Source of the DNA: Asticcacaulis excentricus
Lineage (GTDB): Bacteria; Pseudomonadota; Alphaproteobacteria; Caulobacterales; Caulobacteraceae
Direction: 5' to 3'
Assembly: GCF_003966695.1 (NCBI RefSeq)
Contig: NZ_AP018827.1
Location: forward strand, 1,302,001 to 1,366,000
Length of the DNA: 64,000 nucleotides
In this document: positions 46,407 through 55,705 of the stretch, in pieces
Numbering within the stretch: position 1 is the stretch's first letter
Layout: each line of letters begins with the position of its first letter
Program-made: the position numbers and the translations under genes
Notes under the pieces: generated by a model
What the model was told of the DNA's origin: nothing
What the model saw: the letters and a program-made list of their open reading frames with translations, nothing else
Database searches by the model: none

Positions 46407-46597
46407 AGCCACCTCCGGATAGAGTGACCATATTCACCCAGAATTTTAGCTAAGGCGAGATGATTTAGGTTGAAATGACATGCCGCTTTAGCGCCTCCCT
46501 GTCGAGTAGCGATGAAGCGGAGAATATGCGACTGGCCTTCCCCACTGATCCCGTGTACACACCGCCGCCCTTTTGTGTGTCTTCGGCGGAACCTCCC

Positions 46598-47836
46598 ATG
46601 TCTTTGCGTCCCTATTGCGGTATAGACTTCGGCACCTCCAATTCGGCGGTCAGCGTCGGTCGCGGTGATCAGGTGCAGCTTGTCCCCGTTGAAGGCGACG
46701 CCGTCACCCTGCCCTCGGCCCTCTTTTTTAATACCGAAGAAGACCACCTCAGTTTTGGACGCAAGGCGATTGCCGAATATCTCGACGGCTATGAGGGTCG
46801 CCTGATGCGCGCCCTGAAATCCGTGCTCGGCAGCCATCTGATTGGCGAAACCACTCAGGTCGGCACCAAGCGCAAAAACTTCCGCGAGATCATTGGCCTC
46901 TATATCGCCCATGTGAAACAGGCCGCCGAACGCCACGCCGGTGAGCCCATCGAAGACGTGGTGCTGGGCCGTCCCGTGCACTTTGTCGATGACGATGAAG
47001 AGGCTAATCAGCGTGCCGAAAACGAACTGCGCGGCATTGCCGAGGCGCAGGGCTTTAAGACCATCCGCTTCGAATACGAACCTCTGGCCGCCGCCCGCGA
47101 TTACGCCAGCCGCCTCAGCGCGCGTGAAACCGTGCTGGTGGTCGATATCGGCGGCGGCACTTCGGACTTTTCCGTCCTCAGCCTGTCACCCGACCATTCG
47201 GATATTCTGGCCAATACGGGTGTGCATATCGGCGGCACCGACTTCGACCGCCTGCTGAGTATGGATACGGCCATGGTCGATATGGGCTGGAAGTCGAAGC
47301 TGAAAAGCGGGCTCGACATGCCGGGCCTGACCTATCATCAGCTTTCGACCTGGCACCTGATCAACTTCCTCTACACGCAAAAGGTCATGCACAGCGTGCG
47401 CGAACTGCACCATCTGGCTGAACGCCGCGACCTGACGCAGCGCCTGATCAAGGTGCTGGAAGACCGCATGGGCCACGCCATCGCCAGCCGCATCGAAGCC
47501 GCCAAGATCGCCTTGTCCTCTGATGCGGTTACGCATATCGACTATGGCGATATCGACGCCGGCTGGGTGTCGGACGTGAGGCGCGAGACGCTGATCACGG
47601 CCACGGCGCGCGAAGTGGCCAGGGTGGTGGCCACCGCCTTGCTATGTGTGGAAAAGGCCGGCCTTAAGCCGGACGCCATCCATACCCTGTTCATGACCGG
47701 CGGTTCGACCGCCATGCCGGGCTTTGAGGCCGCCATGCAGGCCGCCTTCCCCGCCGCCAGCATCAATTACGGCGACCGCTTTTCATCGGTGGCGTCGGGT
47801 TTGGGTCTGGCGGCACGGGCGGCGTTTAAAACCTGA
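46598..47836 (+). CDS. Hsp70-family protein (YegD-like)
   Basis: 412 aa from MSLRPYCGIDFGTSNSAV, the phosphate-1 motif. Other ATPase marks: phosphate-2 VLVVDIGGGTSDFSVLSLSP, HIGGTDFDRLLSM, and late LFMTGGSTAMPGFEAAM. No C-terminal substrate-binding domain as in DnaK; length fits the YegD group. The frame upstream to 46475 lacks family support. Probably a specialised actin/Hsp70 ATPase. Confidence 0.9.
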   Translation: MSLRPYCGIDFGTSNSAVSVGRGDQVQLVPVEGDAVTLPSALFFNTEEDHLSFGRKAIAEYLDGYEGRLMRALKSVLGSHLIGETTQVGTKRKNFREIIGLYIAHVKQAAERHAGEPIEDVVLGRPVHFVDDDEEANQRAENELRGIAEAQGFKTIRFEYEPLAAARDYASRLSARETVLVVDIGGGTSDFSVLSLSPDHSDILANTGVHIGGTDFDRLLSMDTAMVDMGWKSKLKSGLDMPGLTYHQLSTWHLINFLYTQKVMHSVRELHHLAERRDLTQRLIKVLEDRMGHAIASRIEAAKIALSSDAVTHIDYGDIDAGWVSDVRRETLITATAREVARVVATALLCVEKAGLKPDAIHTLFMTGGSTAMPGFEAAMQAAFPAASINYGDRFSSVASGLGLAARAAFKT

Positions 47837-48342: not shown

Positions 48343-48663
48343 ATGACTGACAAGCCTGCCAAGACCCCGCAATCCTTCGCCGCCGATGAGGCGGAGCTGG
48401 TCCGCGCCCTTCTGACGCTCAAAACAGCCGAAGAGGTGCGCGCCTTTCTCGACGACCTGTGTACGCCGTCGGAAATCCGGGCCTTTGCCGAACGCTTCAA
48501 GGTCGCGCGTCTGCTGGACGAAAACGCCCTCTCCTACCGGGACATCTCGGAACGGACGGGGGCATCGACCACCACCGTCACCCGTGTGGCGCGCTTCCTG
48601 CGCGACATGCCGCACAAGGGCTACCGGCTGGTGATCGACCGATTGAACCAAGAAAGTCACTAA
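48343..48663 (+). CDS. yerC: YerC/YecD-family TrpR-related regulator
   Basis: 106 aa. LVRALLTLKTAEEVRAFLDD, LCTPSEIRAFAERFKVARLL, then HTH ALSYRDISERTGASTTTVTR. This is the TrpR-superfamily YerC domain. It is first in the histidine operon and is 6 bp from hisG; YerC genes stand before his genes in several bacteria. Regulatory role inferred. Confidence 0.87.
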   Translation: MTDKPAKTPQSFAADEAELVRALLTLKTAEEVRAFLDDLCTPSEIRAFAERFKVARLLDENALSYRDISERTGASTTTVTRVARFLRDMPHKGYRLVIDRLNQESH

Positions 48664-48669
48664 AGTTCT

Positions 48670-49557
48670 ATGCCTTCCGAAACCCTCAGACTGCGTATCG
48701 CCGTTCAGAAATCCGGCCGTTTGGCCGACCGTTCGCTGGAGCTGATTTCCGGGGCGGGCCTGCGCGTCATGAAGGGCGCCAATGAGTTGCTGTACCGCAT
48801 CGAGAACCAGCCCATCGACCTCCTGCGCGTGCGCGACGACGACATCCCGACCTTTGTGGCCGATGGTGTCGCCGAACTCGGCATCGTCGGTTACAACGTG
48901 CTGGCCGAACACTTCCCGGAAGATGACCTCGAAGAGCGCATCGTCATGCGCCTCGGTTTTGGCAAGTGCACGCTGAAGATCGCCGTGCCGGACAGCGTCA
49001 CCTATGAGGGCCCCCAAAGCCTCGAAGGCAAGCGCATCGCCACCTCCTACCCGAATATTCTGGGCAAATGGCTGAAGGACCGGGGCGTCAGCGCCACCAT
49101 CGTCGAAATGCGCGGCGCGGTCGAGGTGGCCCCGCGCATGAAGATCGCTCACGCTATCTGCGACCTCGTCTCGACCGGCGCGACGCTGGAGGCCAATGGC
49201 ATGAAGGCCGTCGATCTGGTGCTGGCCTCCGAAGCCGTGCTGATCAAGGCCCCGCACGCGCCGCCGGCCGATCTGGCGCACGTCTATGACATGCTGCTGC
49301 GCCGTTTCGATGGCGTCACCGCGTCGAACGGGGCAAAATATGTGATGCTGAACGCACCGCGTGAGCATCTGAACGAGATTATCGAGTTGATCCCCGGTGC
49401 CGACGCCCCGACCATCATGCCGCTGGCCGGGCGCGAAGACACGGTGGCCGTCCATGCGGTGTGTCAGGAAAATGTGTTCTGGGACACGCTGGACAAGCTC
49501 AAGGCGGCGGGCGCTTCGGCGATCCTCGTCCTGCCGATCGAAAAGATGATGAAGTAG
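48670..49557 (+). CDS. hisG: ATP phosphoribosyltransferase
   Basis: 295 aa, the long self-sufficient form with a C-terminal histidine-binding domain. First step of histidine synthesis: ATP + PRPP to PR-ATP. Motifs: LRIAVQKSGRLADRSLELIS, VAELGIVGYNVLAEHF, IATSYPNILGKWLKDRG, and PRPP-binding DLVSTGATLEANGMK. The C-terminal part (about 220-295) includes YVMLNAPREHLNEIIELIPG. Feedback control by histidine is expected. Confidence 0.95.
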   Translation: MPSETLRLRIAVQKSGRLADRSLELISGAGLRVMKGANELLYRIENQPIDLLRVRDDDIPTFVADGVAELGIVGYNVLAEHFPEDDLEERIVMRLGFGKCTLKIAVPDSVTYEGPQSLEGKRIATSYPNILGKWLKDRGVSATIVEMRGAVEVAPRMKIAHAICDLVSTGATLEANGMKAVDLVLASEAVLIKAPHAPPADLAHVYDMLLRRFDGVTASNGAKYVMLNAPREHLNEIIELIPGADAPTIMPLAGREDTVAVHAVCQENVFWDTLDKLKAAGASAILVLPIEKMMK

Positions 49558-49611: not shown

Positions 49612-50910
49612 ATGAAGACCTTTATCTGGAACGACCTCAGCGCTTCTGAGCGCAAGTCGGCGTTGTCCCGTCCGGAAAACCGGCGCGACGCCCGCGTGCT
49701 CGAAACGGTGAAGACCATTTTCGACGACGTCGAAGCGCGCGGCTTTGAAGCCGTCACGGACTGGGCGACGCGGCTCGACGGTCACGCCCCCGTGCGGGTC
49801 GAGCTGACGCGCGGTCTGGTCGATGAGGCGCGCGCCAATCTGAGCGCCGAAGACCTCGCCGCCATGGAACTGGCCGTCGAACACGTGCGCGCCTTCCACG
49901 CCGCTGAGCTGCCGTCCGCCGGGCCGGTCATCGCCCCGTCGCAAGGTCTGTCGCTTCAGCGCGTCTATCGCCCGATCTCGACCGCCGGCCTCTATGTGCC
50001 GGGTGGCACCGCGCCGCTGTTTTCGACCCTGATCATGACCGCTGTGCCCGCTCTGGTCGCCGGTGTGCCCAACAGAGTCTGCGTCACCCCGCCAGCCAAG
50101 GACGGCTCGCTGCACCCGATGATGATCGCGGCCGGGGCCGCTGCCGGTCTTGAGGCCGTGTGGCGCGTCGGCGGCGCGCACGCCATCGCCGCCATGGCTT
50201 TGGGCGCACTGCCTGACGTCCCGGCAGCGGACAAGCTGTTCGGGCCGGGTAACAAGTACGTCGCCGAAGCCAAACGTTACGCCACCGAGCGCATCTCCGG
50301 CATCGCCATCGACATGCCCGCCGGGCCGTCGGAGCTGATGGTCATTGCCGACGCTTCGGCCAATGCGAAGCTGATTGCCGCCGACCTTTTGTCACAGGCC
50401 GAACACGACGCCGATGCGCAGGTCGTGCTGGTGACGCTGGACGCGGATCTGATCACCGCCGTCGCCGCCGAGCTTGCGGCGCAACTGGCGACCCTGCCGC
50501 GCGCCGCCATTGCCCGCGCCTCGCTGGAGCAGGCCCGCCTGTTCGTGGTCGATAGCCTTGAGGCCGCCGCCGAAGTCGCCAACCTCTACGGCCCCGAACA
50601 CCTGGCGCTTCAGGTGGCCGATCTCGACGCCCTGATCCCGCAACTGACCGCCGCCGGAACGGTATTCGCCGGGACCTATGCCGCCGAAACCTTCGGCGAC
50701 TATGCGGCGGGCCCCAGCCACGTCCTGCCGACCGACGGCGCGGCACGGGCCTGGGACGGCATCACCATCCGCTCCTTCCTGACCAGCTTTGTGGTGCAGC
50801 GCGCCACCAAACAGGGCGCGGCGACCATTGCGCCCGCCGCTGCCCGTCTGGCGCGTCTGGAAGGCCTCGAAGCACACGCGCTGGCAGCAGATTTCAGGCT
50901 GGAGGTTTAA
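49612..50910 (+). CDS. hisD: Histidinol dehydrogenase
   Basis: 432 aa. Last two oxidations, L-histidinol to L-histidine with NAD. Motifs: YVPGGTAPLFSTLIMTAVPA, GPGNKYVAEAKR, MPAGPSELMVIADASANAKL, zinc and catalytic residues in SQAEHDADAQVVLVT, and GDYAAGPSHVLPTDGAAR. The last codons (ADFRLEV, stop) and the ribosome-binding region after them are duplicated 95 bp downstream. Confidence 0.96.
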   Translation: MKTFIWNDLSASERKSALSRPENRRDARVLETVKTIFDDVEARGFEAVTDWATRLDGHAPVRVELTRGLVDEARANLSAEDLAAMELAVEHVRAFHAAELPSAGPVIAPSQGLSLQRVYRPISTAGLYVPGGTAPLFSTLIMTAVPALVAGVPNRVCVTPPAKDGSLHPMMIAAGAAAGLEAVWRVGGAHAIAAMALGALPDVPAADKLFGPGNKYVAEAKRYATERISGIAIDMPAGPSELMVIADASANAKLIAADLLSQAEHDADAQVVLVTLDADLITAVAAELAAQLATLPRAAIARASLEQARLFVVDSLEAAAEVANLYGPEHLALQVADLDALIPQLTAAGTVFAGTYAAETFGDYAAGPSHVLPTDGAARAWDGITIRSFLTSFVVQRATKQGAATIAPAAARLARLEGLEAHALAADFRLEV

Positions 50911-50911
50911 A

Positions 50912-51004
50912 ATGACACTGTTGTGCACTGCCGCCAGCTTTTTAAGTTGCGCTACCGCTTCGCTGCCTGAGCGCAGGGCGGCAGATTTCCGGTTAGAGGT
51001 CTAA
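50912..51004 (+). CDS. 30-residue ORF ending in a copy of the hisD C-terminus
   Basis: ATG 50912 is preceded by GGAGGT at good spacing. It encodes MTLLCTAASFLSCATASLPE and then RRAADFRLEV. The final ADFRLEV repeats the last residues of HisD, and GAGGTCTAAC-ATG repeats the GAGGTTTAAA-ATG junction. Probably a scar of duplication or deletion between hisD and hisB, with possible but unproved translation. It could couple translation of hisD to the fusion gene. Confidence 0.4.
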   Translation: MTLLCTAASFLSCATASLPERRAADFRLEV

Positions 51005-51005
51005 C

Positions 51006-52508
51006 ATGTTCGCGTCTCCCTTCACCGCCCTCAATGCCCAAGGCTCCGGCCTCGAAGCCTCGCCGCCCTCGCTGGAGCCGCTGCGTGAGCGCATGGCTGA
51101 GCTTTATGGCGTCGAGCCCTATCAGCTCATGGTCACGCGCGGGGCGTCTCACGCCACCGAAATCCTGATGCGCCGCCTGAAGGTCAATGGCTATGAGGCC
51201 GTCTTCACCGAGCCCTGCTATTCGGAGCGGCAATACCACCTGCAAAGTCTGGCCGACGCCTATGGCCTGACGCTGAAACAGGCGACCAAGCCGCTGATGA
51301 CGCTCAAGGGCGCGGGCATGTACGTCATCGACAACCCCGCCATGCCGGACGGCAAGGCCTGGGACCTGATCGCGGCGCGCACCCTGGCCGTTGAAATCTT
51401 CCCGGCCCTGCTGGTGATCGACGAGAGCTATTTCGACGTTTGCGACGCCCAGAGCCTGATCGAACTGACCAAGTCCGAATCGAACGTCGTCGTGCTCAAA
51501 AGCCTGTCCTTCCTGTACGGGCTTTCGGGCGCACGGGTCGGTGCGCTGATCTCCTCGGCCAAGACGCTGAACGGCCTGACGCGCTTCTGCGAGCCGGTGC
51601 CGCTGCCCACGCCCTCGATCCGCGCCGCCGAGGCCGCTCTGGCCCCGTCGCGCGCCTTAAGCGTGCAGGCGCGCATCGACCTGATCCGCGGCGAACAGGC
51701 GCGCTTGCGCGACGCACTGGAACAGGCGTCCGCCGTGGTGCAGTTCCACGTCAATGACGGCCCCTTCGTGTTTATCAAACCGAAGGATCTGATCCGCAGC
51801 CAGACCCAGCTCAAAAAGTTCGGCATCACCGCCAAGAACGCCTATGAGGGCCTGATCATGGCGCTGGGTGACAAGGCGCACAATGACCGCATTCTGGCGG
51901 CGCTCGGGGTCAGCATGGAAGCCGGACGCCCGGCGCGGCGCGGTGAGGTGCTGCGCGACACCAAGGAGACCAAGATTTCGGCGATTGTCGATCTTGATAC
52001 GCCCAAGCCGGTGAAGATTCACACCGGCATCGGCTTCTTCGATCATATGCTGGATCAGGTGGCGACGCACGGCGGCTTCTCGCTGCAACTGTCGTGTCAG
52101 GGCGATCTGGAAATCGACGGCCACCACACCATCGAAGACTGTATGCTGGCCTTCGGTCAGGCCCTGAAACAGGCGCTGGGCGACCGCGTCGGCATGGCGC
52201 GCTTCGGCTTTGTCCTGCCGATGGATGAAACCGAAGCGAAGGTGTCAATCGACATTTCCGGCCGCGCCTTCTGCGTGTTCAAGGGCAACTTCGACGCCAG
52301 CCACATCGGCGACTATCCGACCGAAATGACCGGTCACGCCTTCCGTTCGCTGTCCGAAGCGCTGGGGGCCTCGATCCATGTCGAGGTCGCGGGCGAAAAC
52401 GACCACCACAAGGTCGAAGCCTGCTTCAAGGCGCTGGGACGTGCCCTGAGGATGGCCACGCGCATCGAAGGCGACGCCTTGCCGTCAACAAAAGGCATGT
52501 TGGCATGA
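51006..52508 (+). CDS. hisB: Fusion: HisC-like pseudo-aminotransferase + HisB dehydratase
   Basis: 500 aa. Residues 1-308 show a degenerate HisC (fold type I PLP) domain: LMVTRGASHATEILMRRL, LLVIDESYFDV with the PLP Asp and Tyr, and VLKSLSFLYGLSGARVGALI. In HisC the SLSF position is TLSK, with Lys forming the Schiff base. Here it is Phe169. The domain is about 50 residues shorter than HisC and its PNNPTG loop reads DNPAMPDG. Residues 311-500 are a complete HisB imidazoleglycerol-phosphate dehydratase (GIGFFDHMLDQ, DGHHTIEDC, ENDHHKVEACFKAL, PSTKGML). The stop overlaps hisH by four bases. The second half should be active; the first is probably not an aminotransferase. Confidence 0.9.
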   Translation: MFASPFTALNAQGSGLEASPPSLEPLRERMAELYGVEPYQLMVTRGASHATEILMRRLKVNGYEAVFTEPCYSERQYHLQSLADAYGLTLKQATKPLMTLKGAGMYVIDNPAMPDGKAWDLIAARTLAVEIFPALLVIDESYFDVCDAQSLIELTKSESNVVVLKSLSFLYGLSGARVGALISSAKTLNGLTRFCEPVPLPTPSIRAAEAALAPSRALSVQARIDLIRGEQARLRDALEQASAVVQFHVNDGPFVFIKPKDLIRSQTQLKKFGITAKNAYEGLIMALGDKAHNDRILAALGVSMEAGRPARRGEVLRDTKETKISAIVDLDTPKPVKIHTGIGFFDHMLDQVATHGGFSLQLSCQGDLEIDGHHTIEDCMLAFGQALKQALGDRVGMARFGFVLPMDETEAKVSIDISGRAFCVFKGNFDASHIGDYPTEMTGHAFRSLSEALGASIHVEVAGENDHHKVEACFKALGRALRMATRIEGDALPSTKGMLA

Positions 52509-53179
52509 GTCAGGTGGTTGTCATTGAATTAGGCTGCGCCAATACCGCCTCGGTGCTGTTCGCGCTGGAGCGTCTGGGCGCTGAGGCCGTGCTGTCGTCG
52601 GACGCCGCCGAAATCCGGGCCGCCCCGCGCGTGGTACTGCCCGGCGTCGGCGCGGCGGGCTTTGTGATGAGCCGCATCCACGAGCTGGGGCTTTATGACA
52701 CGATCCGCGGCCTGACCCAGCCGCTGATGGGCGTCTGTCTGGGGCAGCAACTGCTGTTCGACAGCTCCGAAGAGGGCGACGTCGCCTGTCTGGGCCTCAT
52801 TCCGGGCCGGGTCGTGAAGATGGGAGCCCCCAAAGCCCCTGAGCGCATTCCGGAAAGTGGGCACCGGTTTCCGGAATCAAATGCGCGACCAAGCCTAGAA
52901 CCAGAGCCTGTCAGGGCTCTGGTGGTTCCACACATGGGCTGGAACCAGCTACAGGCCGTGCGCGAAGACCCGCTGACGGCGGGCCTGAATGCGGGTGACT
53001 ACGCCTATTTCGTACATAGTTTCGTCTGCCCGGTCACCGACCATACGCTGGCGCAATCGACCTATGGTGCGCCGTTCGCGGCTATGGTGCGTAAGGGGAA
53101 TGTCTGGGGCTGTCAGTTCCACCCCGAACGCTCCTCAGCCGCCGGCGCGAAGATACTGGAGAATTTTCTCCGTCTGTAA
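52505..53179 (+). CDS. hisH: Imidazole glycerol phosphate synthase, glutaminase subunit
   Basis: 224 aa. Class I amidotransferase: LPGVGAAGFVM, nucleophile Cys78 in MGVCLGQQLLF, and His-Glu of the triad in CQFHPERSS. It supplies ammonia to HisF. About 27 residues between KAP (112) and VPHMGWNQL (142) are extra. They read ERIPESGHRFPESNARPS and so on, and are encoded by a 44-bp palindrome plus a second hairpin. The insert lies in a surface loop before the PHMGWN strand. Confidence 0.93.
   Translation: MSQVVVIELGCANTASVLFALERLGAEAVLSSDAAEIRAAPRVVLPGVGAAGFVMSRIHELGLYDTIRGLTQPLMGVCLGQQLLFDSSEEGDVACLGLIPGRVVKMGAPKAPERIPESGHRFPESNARPSLEPEPVRALVVPHMGWNQLQAVREDPLTAGLNAGDYAYFVHSFVCPVTDHTLAQSTYGAPFAAMVRKGNVWGCQFHPERSSAAGAKILENFLRL
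52844..52887 (+). repeat. 44-bp palindrome in frame within hisH
   Basis: GCGCATT, CCGGAAA, GTGGGCACCGG, TTTCCGG, AATCA, AATGCGC. Both arm pairs are perfect. It encodes IPESGHRFPESNA. A second palindrome, ACCAGAGCC/GGCTCTGGT at 52901-52924, follows and is also within the insert. Confidence 0.85.
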
Positions 53180-53310: not shown

Positions 53311-54042
53311 ATGATCCTCTACCCCGCTATCGACCTGATCAACGGTGAATGTGTCCGCCTCGCGCAGGGCCGGTTTGATGCCGTCACCAGATACGACTCC
53401 GACCCGTTCAAGCGTCTGGCCCTGTTCAATGAAGAATTTGCGGAATGGGTGCATATTGTCGATCTCGACGGGGCGCGCGCCGGCTCACCGCAGCAGCACG
53501 AACTGATCGGGCGGCTGGCGCAGGCCTCGCGCGCCAAGATCCAGACCGGCGGCGGGGTACGGTCACGCGCCCATGTGCAGACCCTGCTCGATCAGGGCGT
53601 CTCCGCCGTCGTGGTCGGCTCTGCCGCTGTGAAAGACCCCAGGGAGGTGCGCGGCTGGCTGCGCGACTTCGGCAAGGAACACATCACGCTGGCGCTCGAC
53701 GTTTTACCCACCAGGGACGGTGACTTTGACGCCGCCCTGCACGGCTGGACCGAAGGGTCGGGGATTTCGCTGTGGAAGGTGCTCGACGAATATCCGGTCG
53801 GCGTCGCGCAGCGCATCCTCGTCACCGACGTGTCGCGCGACGGCATGTTGATGGGGCCGAACATGGACCTGATGCGCGCCCTGAGACAAAAACGCCCGGA
53901 CCTCGACATTCAGGCGTCAGGCGGCGTGCGCTCGGTCGAAGACCTTTATGATCTCAAGGCGCTGGGCGTACACGGCGCCATTGTGGGTAAGGCCATCTAT
54001 GAGGGCCTGATTGATTTGAAGGCCGCTCTCAATGTTGGCTAA
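53311..54042 (+). CDS. hisA: ProFAR isomerase
   Basis: 243 aa, TIM barrel. First catalytic Asp in [47 protein letters not shown], second catalytic Asp in [12 protein letters not shown], and phosphate-binding [11 protein letters not shown]. Fourth step of the pathway: ProFAR to PRFAR. Confidence 0.95.
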
Positions 54043-54089
54043 AACGCAAATCTCCTCCCCTACGAAGCGGTAAGATGGAAAGCTGCCCC

Positions 54090-54911
54090 ATGTTAGCCAG
54101 ACGCATCATCCCCTGTCTCGACGTCAAGGACGGCAAGGTCGTCAAGGGCGTGCAGTTTGTTGGCCACGAAGTGCTGGGCGACGCCGTCGATATGGCGCTG
54201 CGCTACCGCGACGAAGGCGCCGATGAGCTGGTGCTGTATGACATCACCGCTTCGGCCGAAGGGCGCACGGTGGATTACAACTGGGTGCGCGACATTGCCC
54301 GCGCGCTTGACATCCCCTTCTGCGTGGCGGGCGGCATCCGTTCGGCGGAGCAGGCGGTGAAGTGCCTCAATTCCGGGGCCGACAAGGTGTCGATCAATTC
54401 GCCCGCCCTGGAGCGCCCGGACCTGATCAACGAACTGGCCGAAATGGCCGGGTCGCAGTGCGTGGTGGTGGGGGTGGATTCGAGAGAACTGCCCCTCCCG
54501 AAAAGTGGGAACCGGTTTTCGGATACAGAGGGGCAACCGCCTTTAAATAGCGATTATTACGTTCATCAGTATTCCGGCGATCCGGACAAAATCCGCGCAG
54601 CGGGTCGTCGCACGCTCGACTGGGTGGTCGAGGCGGCGGAACGCGGGGCGGGTGAAATCGTGCTCAACTGCATGAATCAGGACGGCGTGCGCAAGGGGTA
54701 CGATATTCGGCAACTCAGGCTGGTGCGCGACCTGATCGACATTCCGCTGGTGGCCTCCGGCGGGGCCGGCGCACCGGAACACTTTACCGAGGTCTTCGAT
54801 CAGGCCGACGTGTCGGGCGCTCTGGCGGCCAGCGTCTTCCACAAGAAGATCATCCATATACCGGACCTCAAACGCGACCTGCAAAAGGCGGGAATCGCGG
54901 TTAGGGTATAG
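54090..54911 (+). CDS. hisF: Imidazole glycerol phosphate synthase, cyclase subunit
   Basis: 273 aa from [20 protein letters not shown]. Catalytic Asp11 and Asp130 (VVVGVDSR) are in place. Phosphate-binding [12 protein letters not shown] and [12 protein letters not shown]. It joins ammonia from HisH with PRFAR to give IGP and AICAR. About residues 133-152 ([18 protein letters not shown]) are extra. They come from a 44-bp palindrome placed right after Asp130, in the active-site loop region. Five more codons upstream (54075) are possible. Confidence 0.93.
54491..54534 (+). repeat. 44-bp palindrome in frame within hisF
   Basis: GCCCCTC, CCGAAAA, GTGGGAACCGG, TTTTCGG, ATACA, GAGGGGC. Both arm pairs are perfect. 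Read in the same frame as in hisH, giving [13 protein letters not shown]. Confidence 0.88.
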
Positions 54912-54987: not shown

Positions 54988-55057
54988 TCAATCTGATAAA
55001 TAAAACGTGAAAAAGTATCGAGGCACAGCCGAGAGACTTTGTTCACGAGGAAATTAT

Positions 55058-55705
55058 ATGCCCGAAGCCCACAAACTCCCCAACCCCCTGACGCTGGCCG
55101 ATATCGACGCGCTCGATTTCACCAAGGGCGACGGCCTGATCCCCGCCATCGTGCAGGACGCTGACACGCTTCAGGTGCTGATGCTGGGCTATATGGACCG
55201 CGCCGCCCTGAGCGAGACCCTGACCGATCGTCAGGTGACCTTCTTCTCGCGCTCCAAAAACGGCCGCTGGCGCAAGGGCGAAACGTCGGGCGACTTCCTC
55301 AATCTGGTCAGCGTGACCACCGATTGCGACGAAGACGCGCTGCTGGTGCTGGCGCGTCCCGTCGGGCCGACCTGTCACACCAAGACCACCTCGTGCTTCG
55401 GGCACGACACCGCGCCCGGTATCGGCTTTATGGGCCATTTGGCCGCCGTGGTGAAGGACCGCGCCAAGGCCCCGCCCGCCGACAGCTACACCGCCCGCCT
55501 GATGCAGAAGGGCGTCGCCAAGATTGCCCAGAAGGTCGGCGAAGAAGGGCTTGAAACCGCTCTGGCCGGGCGCTGCGGTGACCTCGACGAACTGCATAAC
55601 GAGGCTGCCGACCTGCTCTATCACCTGTCGGTGCTGCTGATGGCGCGCGACACGACGCTTGAGGCCGTGCTGGATATCCTGCGCGAGCGCCACACAGGGC
55701 GGTAA
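55058..55705 (+). CDS. hisIE: HisI-HisE fusion (PR-AMP cyclohydrolase / PR-ATP pyrophosphatase)
   Basis: 215 aa from MPEAHKLPNPLTLADIDA; GAGGAAA upstream. HisI part (about 15-120): DADTLQVLMLGYMDRAALSE, TFFSRSKNGRWRKGETSG, metal-site TTDCDEDALL and CHTKTTSCFG. HisE part (about 125-215): YTARLMQKGVAKIAQKVGEE, ETALAGRCGDLDELHNEAAD. Second and third pathway steps in one chain. Last gene of the cluster. Confidence 0.95.
   Translation: MPEAHKLPNPLTLADIDALDFTKGDGLIPAIVQDADTLQVLMLGYMDRAALSETLTDRQVTFFSRSKNGRWRKGETSGDFLNLVSVTTDCDEDALLVLARPVGPTCHTKTTSCFGHDTAPGIGFMGHLAAVVKDRAKAPPADSYTARLMQKGVAKIAQKVGEEGLETALAGRCGDLDELHNEAADLLYHLSVLLMARDTTLEAVLDILRERHTGR

Follow-up and report, generated by a model that had tools for sequence, protein, structure and literature searches.

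A HisC-derived domain without its PLP lysine fused to HisB in Asticcacaulis, and a series of decay stages among its relatives

Closest described systems

Among the known his gene fusions, HisNB joins a HAD phosphatase to IGPD (HisB), and the available text of PMC1963479 adds hisIE, HIS4 and HIS7, with no mention of hisC; the fused his genes given in the available text of PMC10138114 do not include hisC. A PLP-enzyme homologue without the PLP lysine is described for LCB1/SPTLC1, which forms a subunit of its own within an active heterodimer (available text of PMC3794620). In the open-licence literature, including the available portions of PMC1963479, PMC10138114 and PMC8305728, we found neither a HisC-HisB fusion among the reports on his gene fusions nor a HisC without its lysine.

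Here we describe a gene of Asticcacaulis excentricus that joins a HisC-derived domain to HisB. It lies in a window of 64,000 nucleotides, by which we mean the whole stretch of DNA analysed (contig NZ_AP018827.1, positions 1,302,001 to 1,366,000; part of contig 1 of 3 of the genome). A plasmid record of A. excentricus CB 48 covers 79% of a 20 kb stretch taken from the third contig, at 89.4% identity. As in HisNB, HisB is the C-terminal half of a two-domain histidine protein; the N-terminal half, however, matches aminotransferases instead of HAD phosphatases and is derived from HisC. The HisB part agrees with HisB/IGPD (PF00475) in being a complete domain, the only HisB match of its genome and a member of a his operon, but differs in bearing a 308-residue HisC-derived domain at its N-terminus. 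This domain resembles HisC (TIGR01141; 1gew, 7szp) in its predicted fold, in Asp139, Ser168, Arg177 and Tyr142, and in having intact relatives that are HisC fused to HisB. Unlike HisC, it lacks the PLP lysine, the lid, the NPTG Asn, the stacking aromatic and the substrate-phosphate Arg, and it scores 103.4 bits against TIGR01141 (NCBIfam, residues 1-308), under the cut-off of 276.55. It shares the missing lysine with LCB1, but is fused to an unrelated enzyme.

The fused gene and its altered active site

The his operon of the window runs on the forward strand and consists of a YerC/YecD family TrpR-related gene (48343..48663; TIGR02531), hisG (48670..49557; TIGR00070), hisD (49612..50910; TIGR00069), the fused gene (51006..52508), hisH (52505..53179; TIGR01855), which overlaps the end of the fused gene, hisA (53311..54042; TIGR00007), hisF (54075..54911; TIGR00735) and hisIE (55007..55705; NF002747), the last given as the listed ORF, whose true start is possibly further downstream. 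The TrpR-related gene lies directly upstream of hisG, ending 6 bases before it, and could regulate the operon. The ORF at 46475-47836 has an Hsp70-type look by eye (IDFGTSNS motif).

The fused gene is a single uninterrupted frame of 500 aa on the forward strand, from an ATG to a TGA at 52506-52508, with the coordinates and frame that the initial annotation gave it. A Shine-Dalgarno-like AGAGG (50995..50999, +; by eye) lies 6 nt upstream of the ATG. Residues 1-308 (51006..51929, +) form the pseudo-HisC domain, and residues 309-500 together with the stop (51930..52508, +) the HisB domain. In Pfam, Aminotran_1_2 matches residues 19-256 with 65.6 bits (cut-off 19.7), and IGPD (PF00475) matches residues 340-481 with 192.9 bits over its full profile (1-144 of 144); the HisB part also exceeds the curated cut-off of NF002111 (242.9 vs 231 bits). 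A genome search returned the fused gene as the sole HisB match. Among the 25 genomes of Asticcacaulis, the genus of the window (g1), 24 carry the fusion as a single ORF, and no HisB match was found in the remaining one (G013, 87% complete). An inner start yielding free HisB is ruled out, as Met304, near the HisB start, is not conserved across these 24 genomes.

The HisC identity of the N domain follows from its intact fused relatives and not from its own scores, which are of similar size for HisC and for CobD (108 bits; cut-off 290.55, NCBIfam). Descent from CobD is ruled out because the HisC scores of the 28 intact fused relatives, 288-334 bits, all exceed the cut-off. The Asticcacaulis N-domain profile matches that of the intact fused HisC domains with a probability of 100% and an E of 5e-51 (hhalign). 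The earlier description of a HisC-like domain joined to HisB holds; its statement that HisB is usually alone or fused to a HAD phosphatase has to be corrected, since intact HisC-HisB fusions exist.

An AlphaFold2 model of the full protein has a mean pLDDT of 87.2 and a pTM of 0.66, and does not fix the relative placing of the two domains. The best PDB match by Foldseek is HisC 1gew (E 2.9e-18), and IGPD 6fwh ranks fifth (E 7.6e-18). The predicted structure thus retains the aminotransferase fold of HisC; the model was built on 57 aligned sequences including true HisC, which pull it towards that fold.

The lysine position was examined in an alignment of the N domains of 101 fused loci, comprising 24 from Asticcacaulis, 35 from the group g3 of the same family, 14 other decayed and 28 intact ones. 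The column of codon 169 of the window's gene (TTC, Phe; 51510..51512, +) has Lys in 28/28 intact fusions and in 0/73 decayed ones. In Asticcacaulis it is Phe in 13 and Tyr in 11 (codons TTC 12, TTT 1, TAC 6, TAT 5), so that a sequencing error or a lone mutant is ruled out; in g3 it is Leu in 34 and Met in one, and in the 14 other decayed domains it is mixed, with a gap in two. No decayed domain has a His there in place of the Lys. The replacement of the Schiff-base lysine by Phe169 noted in the initial annotation is thereby confirmed, no Lys aligning at the position, and its question about relatives is answered by Phe or Tyr in 24/24.

Other columns have changed to different degrees. Those of the Asp, Arg, Tyr, aromatic and Asn are functional sites of HisC, to judge by the available text of PMC4703992 and the general background on this enzyme. 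In Asticcacaulis, Asp139 and Ser168 are kept in 24/24 and Arg177 and Tyr142 in 23/24, in keeping with the retained PLP Asp of the earlier description; Asp139-Glu140 (51420..51425, +) is present in all 101 aligned domains, intact and decayed. By motif, the Asp, Tyr and Arg correspond to conserved sites given in the available text of PMC4703992. Arg177 is kept in 35/35 g3 domains and is Pro in 14/14 of the other decayed ones, and Tyr142 is lost in g3. All 24 Asticcacaulis domains have lost the NPTG Asn, which bears out the altered NNPTG loop, and the substrate-phosphate Arg near the C-terminal end, which is Leu in 15 and Ile in 9. The stacking aromatic is also lost in 24/24, at a site in or beside a stretch with insertions and low model confidence (residues 76-86). 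The Tyr of the NRYP motif, which in HisC reaches into the active site of the partner subunit, is lost in 24/24 Asticcacaulis and kept in 34/35 g3. Compared with a profile built from ten intact domains, the 72 truncated decayed domains start to match at position 35-67, vs 2-10 for the 28 intact ones, and from this late start we conclude that the N-terminal lid region is missing. In HisC, the lid shields the active site and contributes to the dimer interface (available text of PMC4703992).

Intact, decayed and lost HisC halves

The low-scoring HisB loci of the order, with an IGPD E above about 1e-62, proved mostly to be fused. In a FastTree HisB tree, 151 of 177 rows, which are the fused types except that of the Bacteroidales, form one clade (support 0.888), and an IQ-TREE tree of 77 chosen rows separates the fused types from six stand-alone HisB (100/100). 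The 151 HisB of the clade comprise 31 with an intact HisC half, 73 with a pseudo-HisC domain, 22 with a remnant, 23 in HisD-HisB fusions and two cut loci; for the 148 within the order the numbers are 28, 73, 22, 23 and 2. The two cut loci are interrupted by an assembly gap just before the HisD end (G375) and by a contig end (G394). A free HisB is shown in 0/151. Left out of the class counts were L138 (from the genome that also holds L081), L137 (G333, where the contig stops 50 aa short of HisB), L122 (G365, a HAD-like part before HisB by eye) and HisB pieces of less than 150 aa, and G335 (split HisB) and G337, G345 and G357 (cut HisB) were unclassed.

HisB loci scoring better than about 1e-62 were taken as stand-alone, and 40 of them were fetched as a check. 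In 20 stand-alone-type loci there are at most 122 aa before HisB. The 20 high-scoring loci with longer open frames, whose HisB is 42-47% identical to that of the window, have no HisC or HisD match before HisB (0/20), which rules out a fusion there. One genome with an intact HisC-HisB fusion, G360, has at another locus an additional HisB that stands alone, and near it an additional HisC (L240; G360:C10:2000-5500). Three g3 genomes listed as 100% complete (G099, G140, G173) have no HisB match and a separate HisC over the cut-off, and are possible histidine auxotrophs.

Intact fusions also occur more widely. At least four further ones were found, in a Sphingomonas MAG, Sphingomicrobium nitratireducens, an alphaproteobacterial MAG and a Bacteroidales MAG, and no Asticcacaulis was among the matches listed in this wider search. 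In a class sample of 337 genomes, at least 14 matched at an E of 1e-60 or better. These were the window's genome, two from g3, seven whose intact fusion has the lysine, one with a remnant, one in which the locus breaks off at a contig end, and two with no HisB at the matching locus; as at most four candidates per genome were scored, the seven intact fusions are a lower bound. In a search of plasmid proteins, none of the best 12 of 86 records was named as a fused HisC-HisB, and all matched in two or three pieces. The intact HisC-HisB fusions are likely the ancestors of the decayed domains.

The remnants of family f4 (22 loci, among them L123, L125, L134, L136, L186, L191 and L198) stand in frame before HisB and are about 190-230 aa long, as judged by eye. 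Their profile matches the intact HisC profile over 214 columns (probability 89.3%, E 2.4e-7; hhalign) and the decayed profiles weakly (10.7% for Asticcacaulis, 47.3% for g3; hhalign). Loci with no HisC part left have HisD there instead, and a single ORF spans HisD and HisB in 23 genomes, which fall into two groups (f3 g33 and f4 g38). These loci are L117, L119, L124, L127, L173, L176, L181, L182, L185, L187, L194, L203, L207, L211, L217, L226, L229, L231, L233-L236 and L239. The HisD-HisB fusions apparently follow the loss of the HisC part.

The decay goes together with the presence of a separate HisC. The window's genome has one at C1:1618148-1619188, which is over the cut-off (303.2 bits), has the lysine motif TFSK and is about 30% identical to the dead domain; the search for an active hisC elsewhere, proposed with the first description of the gene, was thus positive. 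In the order, 21 of the 28 genomes with an intact fusion have no other HisC over the cut-off, and the other seven have a second one (G106, G201, G209, G226, G360, G376, G427). Of the 73 genomes with decayed domains, 71 have a separate HisC that exceeds the cut-off; of the other two, G273 has one just under it (275.6 vs 276.55 bits) and G430 (65% complete) has none. It is also present in 22/22 remnant and 23/23 HisD-HisB genomes. The pattern is clear, decay having been observed solely in genomes that have, or may have, another HisC, and it comprises few independent events. When lysine loss is set against a separate HisC on the tree (60 rows, without G430), there are five independent pairs on the best tree and one on starred branches, too few to give the comparison power.

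Loss of the lid, His49 (51150..51152, +) and the Pro253 of Gly252-Pro253 (51759..51764, +) are common to Asticcacaulis, g3 and 13 other decayed loci. His49 is found in 23/24 Asticcacaulis, 35/35 g3 and 10/13 of the other truncated decayed domains, and in 0/28 intact ones; Pro253 is found in 24/24, 35/35 and 13/13, hence in all 72 truncated domains, while all 28 intact ones have Asn. The three features are absent from G277 (L128), whose HisC domain is full-length and has Ser in the lysine column and Pro in place of the PLP-phosphate Arg. Its HisB groups with those of two intact f5 fusions (95/72, IQ-TREE), and it probably represents an early decay stage beside intact relatives. The shared derived residues favour a single origin of the 72 truncated dead domains and a separate one for G277. 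The HisB tree puts the truncated dead domains apart, but joining them is not rejected (p-AU 0.164; 35 chosen rows, f3 HisD-HisB included); p-AU is 0.057 when G277 is included and 0.141 for Asticcacaulis with g3. In a published species tree, Asticcacaulis and Brevundimonas form one clade, apart from Caulobacter and Phenylobacterium (available text of PMC12700997).

We now consider selection. Omega was estimated by maximum likelihood in IQ-TREE (GY+F3X4), using one model with rates uniform across sites. For eight close Asticcacaulis genomes, the values are 0.037 for the N domain, 0.036 for HisB, 0.038 for HisD and 0.063 for HisH (seven genomes), and for the five closest they are 0.021 for the N domain, 0.034 for HisB and 0.048 for the separate HisC. 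Eight segments of the N domain range from 0.025 to 0.082, the constraint being domain-wide. Outside these close sets the trees are deep with many silent changes, and the values for the N part and HisB are 0.063 and 0.040 in all 24 Asticcacaulis, 0.096 and 0.037 in g3 (35 genomes), 0.148 and 0.084 in decayed f3 (12), 0.169 and 0.055 in f4 remnants (22), and 0.072 and 0.044 in intact f4 fusions (23). The dead N domain of Asticcacaulis is thus under strong purifying selection, and a random unselected sequence is ruled out; the f4 remnants look relaxed. A homologue that lacks the essential catalytic lysine and is under selection (omega 0.021-0.063 in Asticcacaulis) is a pseudoenzyme.

Comparison at equal HisB divergence gives a similar picture. 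At a HisB identity of 0.80-0.85, the N identity is 0.597 in Asticcacaulis (126 pairs), 0.608 in intact f4 (20), 0.668 in g3 (96), 0.470 in decayed f3 (4) and 0.355 in f4 remnants (37); at 0.90-0.95 it is 0.817 (47), 0.790 (7), 0.667 (101), 0.719 (2) and 0.553 (6), respectively. Together with the low omega, these values indicate that the Asticcacaulis dead domain evolves like an intact fused HisC. The medians of pairwise dN/dS are higher, with N above HisB, namely 0.284 and 0.113 in Asticcacaulis (195/276 pairs) and 0.346 and 0.158 in g3 (584/595 pairs, the N stretch including about 25 codons upstream of the domain); the likelihood values are preferred because many pairs are distant and the g3 stretch is extended.

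Possible roles of the dead domain

We favour the reading that the N domain is a pseudoenzyme derived from an active HisC half and kept to serve HisB as a partner in folding or assembly, without catalysis of its own, and we put its probability at roughly 50%. The starting point would be an old HisC-HisB fusion with an active HisC half. A second, separate HisC would then have taken over the transamination, leaving the fused half free to lose its lysine, its lid and the substrate-phosphate Arg. In Asticcacaulis, and less strictly in g3, the dead half would have been retained as a folded, non-catalytic N-terminal partner of HisB, and the pseudo-HisC domains may pair on the outside of the IGPD shell, where they could stabilise the shell or hold HisB near other histidine enzymes. 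A conservation as strict as that of a working enzyme, in sequences without the lysine, suggests that the domain is kept for a non-catalytic job. According to the available text of PMC10978614, plant IGPD is a 24-mer whose N-terminal sheet faces outwards, an assembly said to be conserved across kingdoms; with this sheet external, a domain fused there would decorate the shell. HisC-type enzymes are dimers with the lid at the interface (available text of PMC4703992). We favour assembly because an N-terminal partner is present wherever visible in the clade, and this partner is HisD when the HisC part is gone. Against a common role, the decayed domains differ between lineages at most of the old active-site residues, and the relaxed f4 remnant (omega 0.169) implies that a partner role would not be equally strict everywhere. 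We offer only tentatively, as somewhat doubtful, the wider proposal of one pseudoenzyme family of single origin (lid loss, His49, Gly252-Pro253) that would be an obligatory non-catalytic assembly domain of HisB in at least 72 sampled genomes of three families, with HisB never working free and its partner exchangeable only for HisD.

The initial annotation had proposed a HisC-derived pseudoenzyme kept as a non-catalytic module within the his operon, with random, unconserved sequence in relatives as the outcome that would speak against it. The module is supported by the loss of the lysine in 73/73, the predicted fold, the purifying selection and the separate HisC, and the region is conserved, as the 73 decayed relatives and the strong purifying selection show. 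Its further suggestion, binding of histidinol-phosphate or imidazoleacetol phosphate, finds no support, as the substrate-phosphate Arg is Leu or Ile in 24/24 and there is no lid region; we now lean towards assembly instead.

A rather unlikely alternative is that the domain persists because the only ribosome-binding site lies before the HisC half, so that HisB could not be freed by a simple deletion and the dead half would be shrinking in-frame baggage until HisD joins HisB. The start and the Shine-Dalgarno-like site do precede the N domain, Met304 is not conserved in the 24 genomes, and the lack of free HisB in the clade could also be accounted for in this way. The erosion series and its end state would be explained, with the relaxed f4 remnants (omega 0.169 vs 0.055 for HisB) and the HisD-HisB single ORFs in 23 loci, but not the omega of 0.021-0.063 over about 300 codons in Asticcacaulis, nor an N domain that diverges no more than intact fused HisC domains do. 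Regulation of HisB by a ligand in the old site, whether PLP/PMP, a histidine-pathway phosphate or another compound, is in our view distinctly unlikely. Asp139, Ser168, Arg177 and Tyr142 are nearly invariant in Asticcacaulis (24/24, 24/24, 23/24 and 23/24), Asp-Glu 139-140 is kept in 101/101, and the Asp, Tyr and Arg match by motif the conserved sites in the available text of PMC4703992; however, none of the 24 Asticcacaulis domains keeps the substrate-phosphate Arg, the stacking aromatic or the NPTG Asn, the lid region is gone, and no pocket is common to all decayed domains, given the loss of Tyr142 in g3 and Pro for Arg177 in 14/14 others.

The dead domain might instead pair with the separate active HisC and so bring consecutive enzymes together, by analogy with LCB1/LCB2 of serine palmitoyltransferase (available text of PMC3794620), which we regard as improbable. 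Of the 73 decayed genomes, 72 have a separate HisC, which in one falls just short of the cut-off, and active sites of HisC-type enzymes are lined by residues of both chains (available text of PMC4703992). Against pairing, the identity between the separate HisC and the dead domain is only about 30% in the window's genome, a separate HisC occurs likewise in the remnant and HisD-HisB genomes, and the NRYP Tyr, which 34/35 g3 domains keep, is lost from all 24 of Asticcacaulis. It is hardly credible that the domain is still an enzyme with other, lysine-free chemistry: the whole domain is constrained and His49 is newly conserved (23/24, 35/35, 10/13), but several PLP-site residues are lost together, and position 169 is Phe or Tyr in Asticcacaulis, with His in no decayed domain.

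Pseudoenzymes and his fusions are known; as far as seen in the open-licence literature, the HisC-HisB combination and the decay series are new, and, by the papers searched, hisC joins the list of his genes that take part in fusions. Whereas a pseudoenzyme is commonly regarded as an end product, the living species of this one order present a series, from the active fusion and the active fusion with a second HisC, through the full-length dead domain and the truncated dead domain under strong selection, to the eroding remnant and the loss of the domain with HisD instead. This series makes two questions testable in one small set of proteins, namely when a fused domain becomes structurally needed, and what a dead enzyme does once catalysis is gone.
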